Part shown: in pieces, positions 18,040-22,219 of the stretch
Position numbering within the stretch: the first letter of the stretch is position 1
Layout of the letters: each line of letters opens with the position of its first letter
Assembly: GCA_036489885.1 (NCBI GenBank)
Contig: DASXEW010000003.1
Span: 1,240,001 to 1,304,000 of the forward strand
Length of the DNA: 64,000 bases
Origin: Candidatus Baltobacteraceae bacterium
GTDB taxonomy: Bacteria; Vulcanimicrobiota; Vulcanimicrobiia; Vulcanimicrobiales; Vulcanimicrobiaceae
Direction: 5' to 3'
Translations under genes and position numbers: made by a program
The notes under the pieces: model-generated
What the model was told of the DNA's origin: nothing
Databases searched by the model: none
Seen by the model: the letters and a program-made list of their open reading frames with translations, nothing else

Positions 18040-19040
18040 GTAATATCACTCCAAAAGTTTGCGCCACCGCGGGCGACGACGTCTTCTCCAAGTTTTCGCG
18101 CCCAGTGCGATTCCGAACCGAACTCGGCGCGCCACGACCATAACCTGCGCGTGGCAAAATGCAGCGTGTGTTCGCGCGTCATCCCGATCGCGGCGTGAAC
18201 CGCGTGCCCGATCGTCGTCGCGATCCCGGCCGCTCGTCCGGCGCGAATTTTTGCGACGCCGGCTGCATTGCTCTTCGCATCGCTCGCCAGCTCGCGCCAC
18301 GCATACGCCGACGCCACCTCTGCTGCGATTTTCTCTTCCGTGAGAATCGCAAGCTGATGCGAGATCGCCTGATAGCTGCCGATCTGCTTTCCGAACTGTT
18401 CGCGTTCTTTTGCGAAGCGCACCGACTGCTCGAGGATACGATTGACGGCACCCGCCATTTGCACCGCGCGCACGAGCGCACCGAAGCGTTGCACAACGTC
18501 AGCCGGCAGATTGCCGGGCAGCGCGGCCGACTTAACCGGACCCGCGGCCGCGGCGTCAAGCGTATCGCGGGGCTCATCGGCGGCGTTTTTCCCCGGCGTC
18601 ACGCGCAGATGCGCGATCCGGTACAGCACGACCGAGCTTTCAAGCGCACCGGGAATGACCGCGACGGCGTGTTCGGCCGCGCGGCCCCACGGAACACCTT
18701 GCATGTGTGCCACGTCGCTCGCGTCCGGAACGATCGTGAGCGGGCCCGGCGGTTGTTCGATGCCGGCCTGCCGCAAGAGCCATCCCGCAATCAACGTTTC
18801 AGCGAGCGGAATCGGTGCGAGCGCTTCGCTTGCTGCTGCGATAATCGGATACGCTTCGTTCCAGGTTGCGCCGAGCTCGTCGTCGTCGAACAGCGTCGTG
18901 TAACCGCTCTCTTCGACGTGCTTCCACAGCGCGCGCGGCCACGTTCCGCCCTCGGCGGCACGCAGCGTGTTCTCGTCGACTTCGCTTGAGAACAATTCGT
19001 GCGCGCTCTCTGCGAAGAGCGCTTGCAGCTCGGCCGTCAT
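18036..19040 (-). CDS. Acyl-CoA dehydrogenase-like subunit (short)
   Basis: The 334 residues show the C-terminal acyl-CoA dehydrogenase fold, with the REQFGKQIGSYQAISHQ signature near residue 215 and REHTLHFATRRLW near the end. It is shorter and more divergent than the adjacent dehydrogenase. Actinobacterial steroid catabolism uses heterotetramers built from two such unlike subunits (the ChsE or FadE28/29 type); the four-base overlap with its neighbour suggests the same arrangement here. The substrate is unknown. Confidence 0.84.
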   Translation of the reverse strand: MTAELQALFAESAHELFSSEVDENTLRAAEGGTWPRALWKHVEESGYTTLFDDDELGATWNEAYPIIAAASEALAPIPLAETLIAGWLLRQAGIEQPPGPLTIVPDASDVAHMQGVPWGRAAEHAVAVIPGALESSVVLYRIAHLRVTPGKNAADEPRDTLDAAAAGPVKSAALPGNLPADVVQRFGALVRAVQMAGAVNRILEQSVRFAKEREQFGKQIGSYQAISHQLAILTEEKIAAEVASAYAWRELASDAKSNAAGVAKIRAGRAAGIATTIGHAVHAAIGMTREHTLHFATRRLWSWRAEFGSESHWARKLGEDVVARGGANFWSDIT

Positions 19041-20170
19041 CGCAAGAGCTCCCGGCCGATGAGCGAGCGCAAAATTTCGCGCGTTCCACCACGCAACGAA
19101 AATCCCGGCGCCATCTCGGTCGTGACGGCTTGCACGCGCGTGAGATCGTCGGTTCCGAGCAGTTCGCGTCCGAACATGTCGTGAATCGCGTGCGGAATGC
19201 GCTGCTCGAACGTGACGCCGAGGTCTTTCACCACGGCGGCAGCGATGCCGGTGTCTTTGCCTTCGCCGAGCATGGCGGCGACGCCGAGCGACATCTGCCG
19301 CAGCGTCACGAGCTCGGCATACATGATTCCAAGCTCCGTCGTCACGCGCGAGTCGCCACGATCTGCCGCCCCGATCGCTTCGACGAGTAACCGGAAGCTG
19401 CTGAGATAACGCTCCGGTCCGCTGCGCTCGAGCGCAAGCTCGGAGACGACTTGCGACCAGCCACCGCCCTCGTCACCGAGCAATGAGTCTTCGCGAATGA
19501 CGGCGTCGCGAAAAACGACCTCGTTGAAATTGTCGTGGCCGCCAAGCTCGCGAATCGTGCGAATCTCGATGCCTGGCGTGTGCAGATCGATGACGAACTG
19601 CGAGAGCCCTTTGTGTTTGTCGGTTGACGTGCCGCTCGTTCGGAAGAGTCCGATCATGTAATCGGCCTGGTGCGCGAACGTCGTCCAGAGCTTGGTTCCG
19701 CTCAGCTTCCAACCACCGGCGACGCGCTCGGCACGCGCTTGCACGCTCGCCAGATCGGAGCCGACTTCGGGCTCGCTCATCCCGATACAAAACGTCAGCT
19801 CGCCGCACGCGATCCGAGGCAAGATCGACTGCTTCATTTCCTCGGTGCCGCAACGCAAGATGAGCGGACCGCTTTGCCGGTCGGCGACCCAATGCGCGCC
19901 CGACGGTGCACCCGCCGCGAGCAGCTCTTCGAGCACGACGTAGCGCTCGAGCGAGGAACGCTCGTGACCGCCGTACTGCTTGGGCCAGGTCATGCCGATC
20001 CAGCCGCGCGCCCCCATGCTCCGGCTGAACGCACGATCGTAGCTCATCCAGCTAGCCGCGCGAATCTCGGCCGAGTACTGCGGAACGTGCTCTGCAAGAA
20101 ACGTGCGAACGTCTTTGCGAAGCTGTTCTATATCTTCCCCGAGTGGTGGCGCGAGTGCAATCACCTTCAC
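19037..20170 (-). CDS. Acyl-CoA dehydrogenase
   Basis: The full-length flavoprotein contains CIGMSEPEVGSDLASV, the loop WKLSGTKLWTTFAHQADYMIG and the C-terminal GGTREILRSLIGRELL. It introduces a double bond into an acyl-CoA and passes electrons to ETF. I chose GTG 20170 because an ATG at 20200 would leave only three bases to the divergent UGSC gene and hence no room for either promoter; the ATG remains possible. It leads the operon with the second dehydrogenase and DctP. Confidence 0.88.
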   Translation of the reverse strand: MKVIALAPPLGEDIEQLRKDVRTFLAEHVPQYSAEIRAASWMSYDRAFSRSMGARGWIGMTWPKQYGGHERSSLERYVVLEELLAAGAPSGAHWVADRQSGPLILRCGTEEMKQSILPRIACGELTFCIGMSEPEVGSDLASVQARAERVAGGWKLSGTKLWTTFAHQADYMIGLFRTSGTSTDKHKGLSQFVIDLHTPGIEIRTIRELGGHDNFNEVVFRDAVIREDSLLGDEGGGWSQVVSELALERSGPERYLSSFRLLVEAIGAADRGDSRVTTELGIMYAELVTLRQMSLGVAAMLGEGKDTGIAAAVVKDLGVTFEQRIPHAIHDMFGRELLGTDDLTRVQAVTTEMAPGFSLRGGTREILRSLIGRELLR

Positions 20171-20203
20171 GGGAAAGTTTTTGGCGCAATAGAAGCGCAT
20201 ATC

Positions 20204-20731
20204 ATGCCTTCCATACTCGTTTACGATCCCACGGCCGAAGAAGACAAAAGCCAGTCGAAGCTCGCGGCACGCTTGCCGTCGCTCAACGGCAAAGTCATCG
20301 GCCTGCTCGACAACACCAAAGATTTGGTCGGTGTGTTGCTCGACGAGGTCAGGCAGCAGCTGCAGAAAGACTATCCGCAGGCGCGCTTTCGCAACTTCCG
20401 CAAGGAATCGGTCTCCGGCATCAAGCCCGACCTCTTGGAACAGGCGCTGACCTGCGACGCAATCGTCGGCGCGGTCGGTGATTGAGGCTCTTGCGCGTCG
20501 TGGAGTTGCCGCGACTCAATGATCTTCGAAGAACGCGGGATACCGACCGCGACGTTCATCACGCACTCGTTCGAAACGTACGCGCGTGGTTTGTGCCGCA
20601 TGCAAGGTTGGGAAGCGCTTCCGCTCATTGTCATTCCGCATCCGATCGCGGCGCGGCCGCAAGACGAGCTGCGCGAAAAAGTGCGTAAAGTATCCGAAGG
20701 GATTGTTTCGGCGTTGACCGTTCGCGCATGA
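20204..20731 (+). CDS. UGSC-family selenoprotein, in-frame UGA
   Basis: Two ORFs in one frame are separated by TGA at 20483-20485. Read through as selenocysteine the product is 175 residues with U94-G-S-C97, preceded by IVGAVGD and followed by ASWSCRDS. This is the motif after which the UGSC family is named; family members have U or C at that place. The N-terminal half begins MPSILVYDPTAEE. The function is unknown; a selenol paired with a cysteine suggests a redox or thiol-transfer role. A hairpin follows the UGA. The stop overlaps the next gene's ATG (ATGA), indicating an operon. Without recoding it would be wrongly split or called a pseudogene. Confidence 0.9.
20497..20515 (+). promoter_or_regulatory. 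Candidate SECIS hairpin of the UGSC selenoprotein
   Basis: GTCGTGG (20497-20503) pairs with CCGCGAC (20509-20515) over seven base pairs including one T-G wobble, leaving loop AGTTG. The loop starts 18 bases after the UGA, within one base of the spacing in the other selenoprotein gene. The loop sequence is less typical than AGGU, so this one is less certain. Confidence 0.55.
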
Positions 20732-21822
20732 ACCCCGACGTCGAAGTCGTCGATTCCGTCGAAGGCGCGATCGCCTACTTCGAACGTGCGTACGAAAATG
20801 GTTGGACCGACGGCTTACCCGTCTTCCCGCCGACGAAAGAACGCGTCGACGCGATGCTCCAGCATACGGACCGCGATCCGGAGGACGTCGTCGGCAAGAT
20901 TCCGCCTCGCAATGGTGTGGCGACCGTTCGCAAGATCGCGATCAACGCGGTGATGACCGGCTGCCGGCCCGAGTATATGCCGGTGCTGATCACCGCGATC
21001 GAGTGCATGCTCGATCCGAAATACAATCTCTACGGCCGTCAGACGACGACGCATCCCGGCGCGCATCTGTTGATCGTGCACGGCCCGGCGCGGGCGGAGC
21101 TCGACGTGAACTGCAAGTTCAACGTGCTCGGTCACGGCTGGCGCGCAAACGCGACGATGGGGCGCGCACTGCGTTTGATGATGATCAACATCGGCGGCAA
21201 CAAGCCGGGCGTCACCGACATGGCGACGCACGGACATCCCGGCCGCTATTCGTATTGCATCGGCGAAGACGAAGAAGGCAGTCCGTGGACACCGTTCCAC
21301 GTCGACCGCGGTATCGAAAAGGACGTGTGTGCCGTGACCGTCGTTTGTGCGGAAGCGCCGCACAACGTCAACGATCAGGTCAGCAAGACGCCCGAGCGGT
21401 ATCTGGGCTCCGCAGCATCCGCGATGGCGCACCTCGGTGCCAACGGCATCTATCGCGGCGGCCTGCAGAGCGAGCAAATTCTCGTGGTCACGTCGGAGAG
21501 CGCTAACTGGTTTCAGGGCTTCGGCTGGGGCAAAGCCGACGTGCAAAAGTACATCTTCGAGCACGCGCGGCAGCCGGTTCGCGAGCTGCGCGATCGCGGC
21601 GGCTGGAACACGGCGCCACTTCCGTCCTACGTTAATAAGGATGACGACGACGCTATGGTCGGCATCGTCGAGCGTCCGGAAGATATTCTGGTGCTCGTTG
21701 CAGGCGGTCATCTGCGCCACATGAACGCGATCTTGACCTCGGCGTACAACCTCAGCGTTACGCGGCCCGTCACGCGCAAAGACGGAACTCCCGTCCATTC
21801 CGTGAAAGAGCTTTTCCGCTAA
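20728..21822 (+). CDS. Conserved protein of unknown function, operon partner of UGSC protein
   Basis: The 364-residue soluble protein has no signal peptide or membrane segment. It opens with WTDGLPVFPPT, followed by GVATVRKIAINAVMTGCRPEY, TTTHPGAHLLIVHGP, GWRANATMGRALRLMMINIGG and a late LVAGGHLRHMNAI. I recognise this arrangement as a widespread uncharacterised family found next to UGSC genes, but I know of no assigned reaction. It contains few cysteines, one in MTGCRPEY. It overlaps the selenoprotein stop by four bases and is followed after four bases by the AhpD-like gene, so the three likely act together. Confidence 0.8.
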   Translation: MNPDVEVVDSVEGAIAYFERAYENGWTDGLPVFPPTKERVDAMLQHTDRDPEDVVGKIPPRNGVATVRKIAINAVMTGCRPEYMPVLITAIECMLDPKYNLYGRQTTTHPGAHLLIVHGPARAELDVNCKFNVLGHGWRANATMGRALRLMMINIGGNKPGVTDMATHGHPGRYSYCIGEDEEGSPWTPFHVDRGIEKDVCAVTVVCAEAPHNVNDQVSKTPERYLGSAASAMAHLGANGIYRGGLQSEQILVVTSESANWFQGFGWGKADVQKYIFEHARQPVRELRDRGGWNTAPLPSYVNKDDDDAMVGIVERPEDILVLVAGGHLRHMNAILTSAYNLSVTRPVTRKDGTPVHSVKELFR

Positions 21823-21826
21823 ATCG

Positions 21827-22219
21827 ATGGACGAGAACGAGCTCAAGAAGCTGACGCAGGAAACTGCGAAGCGGCTCTTTGGAACGCCGAAAGACGGCGA
21901 AGGCGTCTACGCGCTGTGGAAAGAGTTCGATCCCGAGCTGGCGCGGCAGTTCTCGATGTTCGTCACTGGCCGCTTGTACGCGCGCGAGATCCTCACGCAG
22001 AAAGAGCGCGAGCTATGCGCGGTTGCGGCGCTCGCTGTGCTGAATTTCTGGGACGAATTGCGCATTCACTGCGGCGCGGCGCTCAACGCCGGTGCGAACG
22101 CAAAAGAAGTTGCCGAAGTGATCTTTCAAATGTCGACGTACGGCGGCGTGCCGTGCATGGTCGAGGGCCTGCGCACGCTCAAAAGCGTTCTGCAAGAACG
22201 CGGCGAGTGGCCTAGCTAA
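21827..22219 (+). CDS. Carboxymuconolactone decarboxylase / AhpD-like protein
   Basis: The 130-residue all-helical protein resembles the carboxymuconolactone-decarboxylase family (REILTQKERELCAVAALAVLNFWDELRIHCGAALNAGA). AhpD members use a CxxC-H relay to reduce peroxiredoxins; here only one cysteine precedes the AALNAGA turn (RIHCG) and a second lies at GGVPC, so the AhpD redox pair is not obvious. It is the last gene of the UGSC operon. Either decarboxylase-like or redox roles are possible. Confidence 0.82.
   Translation: MDENELKKLTQETAKRLFGTPKDGEGVYALWKEFDPELARQFSMFVTGRLYAREILTQKERELCAVAALAVLNFWDELRIHCGAALNAGANAKEVAEVIFQMSTYGGVPCMVEGLRTLKSVLQERGEWPS

Follow-up and report, generated by a model that had tools for sequence, protein, structure and literature searches.

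The UGSC locus

We analysed a window of 64,000 nucleotides from a Candidatus Baltobacteraceae genome. Two overlapping genes on the plus strand form the core of the locus, the first of which is interrupted by an in-frame UGA. The features of the window considered here are the following.

20204..20731, plus strand: UGSC-family selenoprotein gene, 175 aa through one UGA, with matches to PF24696 and NF041046
20483..20485, plus strand: UGA codon for selenocysteine 94; the homologous codon is TGA in 97 relatives and TGC or TGT in 6
20492..20494, plus strand: codon for Cys97, the second redox residue of the UxxC motif; the Cys column is invariant (alignments A1 and A4)
20497..20515, plus strand: bSECIS-type hairpin with a 7-bp stem (20497-20503/20509-20515) and the loop AGTTG (20504-20508), which contains GU; the stem covaries in relatives
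20728..21822, plus strand: partner gene, 364 aa, with an ATGA overlap with the UGSC stop; next to UGSC in almost every genome
21827..22219, plus strand: carboxymuconolactone-decarboxylase/AhpD-like gene (PF02627, 54.7 bits)
About 735-1350 (extent of the match), minus strand: GrdB/PrdB-like selenoprotein with the motif U-P-M-C (PF07355, TIGR04483); UGA at 937-939; open frame between about 1647 and 238

The UGSC frame starts with ATG at 20204, contains TGA at 20483-20485 and terminates with TGA at 20729-20731. Around the UGA, the read-through peptide is AVGD-U-GSC-ASWSC, with selenocysteine (Sec) at position 94 and cysteine at position 97, so that the U/C-G-S-C motif of the UGSC family is present as U94-G-S-C97. 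The protein matched the Pfam family PF24696 with 155.1 bits (cut-off 25) across residues 6-172, which lie on both sides of the UGA, and the NCBIfam model NF041046 with 133.2 bits (cut-off 125). Chance would not come close to giving such a result. Judged by these profile matches, the gene is a typical representative of the known UGSC family, in agreement with the first-pass annotation of this DNA.

Upstream, a divergent acyl-CoA dehydrogenase frame (19037-20200, minus strand) begins 3 bases away from the called start of UGSC. The two promoters would therefore overlap coding sequence, or else the dehydrogenase starts further in. A blind search for read-through frames by codon statistics was discarded, because its noise was too high and the real UGSC gene itself scored low 3′ of the UGA.

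Recoding of the UGA as selenocysteine

The first-pass annotation had interpreted the split frame as a recoded selenoprotein gene, a reading that a residue other than Sec or Cys in homologues would have called into question. We compared the gene with a set of relatives made up of the UGSC genes of the phylum and those from 80 loci of named organisms; 105 of them were alignable at the Sec column. At this position, 97 genes carry TGA, five TGC and one TGT, and the remaining two are low-scoring outliers. The sequence GSC follows the Sec codon in 79 of the 97 TGA relatives.

The 3.48-Mb assembly that contains the window also encodes the machinery for Sec insertion. The tRNA-Sec, whose presence had been suggested as a check, was found with 74.8 bits (cut-off 47). 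SelA (433 bits), which lies directly before SelB (291.5 bits), and SelD (375 bits) all exceeded their cut-offs, and SelD is itself read through one in-frame TGA. Together, these components support the earlier view that the organism truly uses Sec. Three UGSC genes are present in this genome, each with exactly one TGA. The additional genes are listed below.

G000:C3:303143-304069, plus strand: SelD gene (locus L156), one in-frame TGA
G000:C1:495279-495785, minus strand: UGSC paralogue (locus L009), one TGA, with its own partner gene
G000:C3:833178-833660, minus strand: UGSC paralogue (locus L011), one TGA, with its own partner gene

A reading of the UGSC gene as a pseudogene or a sequencing error, with the UGA as an ordinary stop, has a purely formal basis in that the ORF caller returns two short frames. 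Comparison refutes it, since the TGA is shared by 97 relatives and replaced by a Cys codon in six, and the full Sec machinery is present in the genome. A base error recurring at one codon in 97 genes is implausible, and we give this explanation a negligible probability.

The window had been described as holding two recoded genes, and the second of these is found at its left end. The GrdB/PrdB-like protein encoded there matched PF07355 with 25.5 bits (cut-off 22) and TIGR04483 with 105 bits. When eight relatives from the phylum were aligned, UGA/Sec occupied the same column in all of them, and the gene has a hairpin with the same geometry as that of the UGSC gene. This is probably the gene that the earlier description counted as its first selenoprotein.

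A conserved hairpin downstream of the UGA

The hairpin begins 11 nt 3′ of the UGA and its loop begins 18 nt past it, exactly where the first-pass annotation had placed the loop. The GU of the loop is kept in 94 of the 97 TGA relatives. To describe the conservation of the stem we used 38 sequences chosen for their diversity; related rows inflate counts of this kind. Among these 38, the covariation score of the stem was 0.370, compared with 0.148 ± 0.021 after shuffling, and two-sided changes affected 31 cells, compared with 12.4 ± 2.2 in the shuffles. In the same set, 89% of stem cells were paired, as opposed to at most 51.5% in slid versions of the stem. Measured against synonymous recodings, the SECIS stretch folded better than expected, with a mean z of -1.36, whereas flanking stretches gave -0.18, 0.11 and -0.06.

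Considered by itself, the hairpin of the window did not outperform synonymous recodings of its peptide (z -0.36; 7 pairs, mean of the recodings 5.1, p 0.13), and searches of the region and of the whole window against Rfam yielded no match bearing on it. Cys homologues retain 5.5 of the 7 stem pairs, which indicates that the peptide itself explains some of the pairing. The support for the window hairpin as a putative bSECIS element is thus drawn from the comparison of relatives and not from the single sequence. It is this comparison that reveals the arrangement typical of a bSECIS, namely a hairpin just past the UGA with a G in its apical loop.

Sec and Cys forms of the family

Among 149 genomes from the phylum, UGSC genes occur in 18, with 29 matches in total. 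Twenty-six of these have one in-frame TGA, two encode Cys in a divergent motif (GHCSTC) and the last is a fragment. Outside the phylum, Cys forms that keep the GSC motif were found in Natrialba asiatica, Natronomonas gomsonensis, a Sphingomonas assembly and a Binatia assembly. None of these four genomes has a true SelA (>400 bits), compared with 17 of the 18 Sec-type genomes that we checked. The single Sec-type genome lacking it is a 1.9-Mb SAR202 assembly, which is possibly incomplete. Counting against a neat match between Sec and SelA, the two genomes with the diverged Cys forms of the phylum (G090 and G091) do have SelA.

In a 2008 marine survey (PMC2398784), UGSC is among the commonest selenoprotein families in aquatic metagenomes, and its Sec form is far commoner than its Cys form (255 to 21). 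The gene described here and its relatives share with the family, as presented there, the family match, the U-G-S-C motif, a downstream hairpin and the strong excess of Sec over Cys (here 97 to 6). A 2026 review (PMC13188914) lists UGSC with families of largely uncharacterised function.

UGSC and its partner gene form a two-gene module

The protein encoded by the partner gene had no match in Pfam, NCBIfam or the PDB sequences, and searches of the PDB sequences with the UGSC protein likewise gave nothing usable. A search for the partner, run independently of UGSC, recovered it in 18 of these 149 genomes. Seventeen genomes contain both genes, one contains UGSC only, one the partner only, and the rest contain neither; in both exceptions the gene lies at a contig end. 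For 26 of the 29 UGSC matches in the phylum, the partner is the adjacent gene in the same orientation; for one it is 1.85 kb away, and for two the contig ends.

The 80 loci of named organisms were found with the partner profile, after a contig scan with a single UGSC protein had confirmed nothing. In 67 of these 80 loci, from other bacteria and archaea, a UGSC gene lies within 1 kb on the same strand, placed first in 51 and after the partner in 16. Because these loci were selected for the partner, linkage is counted without bias only in the phylum, where the search started from UGSC. The remaining partner loci without a nearby UGSC include several at contig ends and five from Poribacteria. These Poribacteria (L126, L127, L135, L139 and L141) have a shorter partner-like match with no UGSC nearby.

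In two loci (L044 and L045), UGSC and partner are fused into one protein. Seen through gene order across genomes, UGSC and its partner are a conserved two-gene module, and the near-constant adjacency suggests a two-part enzyme. We consider it highly probable that the window encodes such a module with its UGA recoded as selenocysteine. A fusion of UGSC with a domain named Unknown_1 is reported in the 2008 survey (PMC2398784), where UGSC is joined to an unnamed conserved domain, as in the fusions found here. Unknown_1 may correspond to the partner or to a NifU-like domain described below. Our literature searches returned nothing relevant on the gene neighbourhood of UGSC or on selenocysteine in Eremiobacterota, the phylum presumed for that search.

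Genomic context

The UGSC pair of the window is surrounded by genes for an enoyl-CoA hydratase, class III CoA-transferases and two acyl-CoA dehydrogenase-type proteins, as well as a TRAP-type binding protein, an AhpD/CMD-like protein, a lactonase-like hydrolase, an amidohydrolase and a 3-hydroxyisobutyrate dehydrogenase-like protein. Across 81 loci (the 80 loci and the window), the recurring clusters were a TctC-type binding protein (19 loci), enoyl-CoA hydratase (12) and CoA-transferase (9); genes in these loci were called as simple longest ORFs, and clusters were named from representatives and window homologues. The neighbours suggest a role in uptake and CoA-linked organic-acid catabolism without fixing one substrate, and because the genes near UGSC vary by locus, no single pathway is fixed either. 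The AhpD-like gene at 21827..22219 is possibly on the same transcript as the UGSC pair and is a candidate member of the module; its cluster is found in just two loci among the 80 and the window.

A flavodoxin-like fold is predicted for UGSC

An AlphaFold2 model of the UGSC protein, in which residue 94 was entered as Cys, had a pLDDT of 92.4. Strands alternate with helices in it, and residue 94 falls after strand 86-92 and just before helix 95-110. The top structural matches of the model were flavodoxin-like and receiver-like proteins (8s7v_H: Z 11.3, rmsd 3.2, 132 aligned residues), and no thioredoxin was present among the best 50 structural rows. The predicted fold is flavodoxin-like and not obviously thioredoxin-like.

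A thioredoxin-like fold had been guessed for UGSC in the 2008 survey (PMC2398784). On a rival reading that adopts the assumption of that survey, UGSC would be a stand-alone thioredoxin-like thiol/selenol oxidoreductase in redox homeostasis, and the neighbouring gene would encode a substrate protein or a bystander. The UxxC motif agrees with such a function. The confident flavodoxin-like model and its structural matches speak against it, although the lack of a thioredoxin among the best 50 rows is no proof. The near-obligate partner, the fusions and the catabolic gene context all favour a dedicated enzyme over a stand-alone oxidoreductase, which we regard as quite improbable.

The model of the partner had a pLDDT of 86.1. 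Its best Foldseek rows, class I fumarases, reached an E-value of 1.5e-3 but a TM score of 0.28, and VIA-align gave Z values of at most 6.0. With such values, we do not claim a fold for the partner.

Some UGSC proteins of the phylum carry a NifU-like C-terminal domain, which was detected in L038 (29.7 bits, cut-off 27) and more weakly in L034; the tails of L032 and L039 resemble it by eye. Such fusions, in L038, L034 and by eye in the tail of L039, would fit a role in which Sec94 and Cys97 serve as ligands of a metal or toxic metalloid, or in which the pair transfers sulfur or selenium or assembles a cofactor. However, the NifU fusion is found in a minority of proteins, the window gene has no NifU-like domain, and neither metal-resistance nor Fe-S assembly genes are prominent among the recurring neighbours. 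A metal- or cofactor-related role therefore appears unlikely to us.

Distant relationship to selenoprotein B

Weak matches to selenoprotein B models recurred when UGSC proteins were compared with the NCBIfam library. Among 22 UGSC members, 15 matched the GrdF model, 13 GrdB and 8 PrdB, with a best E-value of about 8e-4. In members scanned singly, these matches scored about 9-15 bits, compared with cut-offs of 65 to 800. UGSC had no match to the Pfam GRDB family (PF07355), which puts any relationship to selenoprotein B below the family level. For matches listed with coordinates, the Sec of UGSC coincided with, or lay at most a few positions from, the point in the model to which the Sec of the window's PrdB-like protein aligned.

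We aligned UGSC profiles with those of the PrdB-like proteins of the phylum using hhalign and obtained E-values of 8e-5 and 2e-4, with Sec placed on Sec, whereas unrelated controls gave 0.47 and 0.32. The probabilities of 61% and 47% indicate a distant relationship and not membership. As in UGSC, the UxxC motif of GrdB, GrdF, GrdH and PrdB (PF07355, TIGR04483) follows a strand and precedes a helix that ends in E..GIPT, and the Sec columns align. UGSC differs from these proteins in consisting of a single domain and in scoring far under every curated cut-off (PF07355, TIGR01917 and TIGR04483). Its partner, unlike the partners in GrdB/PrdB systems, has no match to the pyruvoyl-subunit family. A search of the genome for the GrdE/PrdA-like family PF09338 found none, although control searches were equally empty. 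At the level of profile comparison, UGSC appears to be a weak but consistent, distant relative of the glycine/D-proline reductase selenoprotein B, with aligned Sec columns.

A proposed two-subunit selenoenzyme

Our working model begins with decoding of the UGA at 20483-20485 by SelB and Sec-tRNA, which would be directed by the hairpin 11 nt downstream. The product is predicted to fold as one flavodoxin-like alpha/beta domain, whose third strand has Sec94 and Cys97 at its carboxyl end. Sec94 would act as the nucleophile and Cys97 as the resolving thiol through a Se-S bond. Adjacency and fusion are observed, and we infer from them that UGSC and the 364-aa protein form a two-subunit enzyme.

The distant kinship to the Sec subunit of the glycine, sarcosine, betaine and D-proline reductases makes a reductive chemistry with Sec as the nucleophile the most likely one. 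We tentatively propose that the enzyme reduces a small organic acid or cleaves it reductively within a CoA-linked catabolic pathway, with the partner contributing the substrate site. More speculatively still, UGSC and its partner might represent a widespread two-subunit selenoenzyme and a new branch of the selenoprotein-B reductases in CoA-linked organic-acid catabolism, with Cys versions in haloarchaea and the Sphingomonas assembly.

The gene itself belongs to a known family; the parts that deserve specialist attention are the two-gene module and the relationship to selenoprotein B. The linkage to the partner and the distant kinship with selenoprotein B are new with respect to both the family description and the first-pass annotation, and the two extra UGSC copies with respect to the latter. 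With a near-obligate partner and a distant link to the proline and glycine reductases, an orphan family becomes a two-subunit enzyme that can be tested, and naturally occurring Cys forms permit expression in hosts without Sec.

The genome described here holds three paralogous modules of UGSC and partner. The partner encoded in the window is 72% identical to a homologue in a Betaproteobacteria assembly (L066, 4718-5794) and 65-66% identical to those of Nitrospinota. Within its own phylum, identity does not exceed 51%, a pattern that suggests horizontal transfer.
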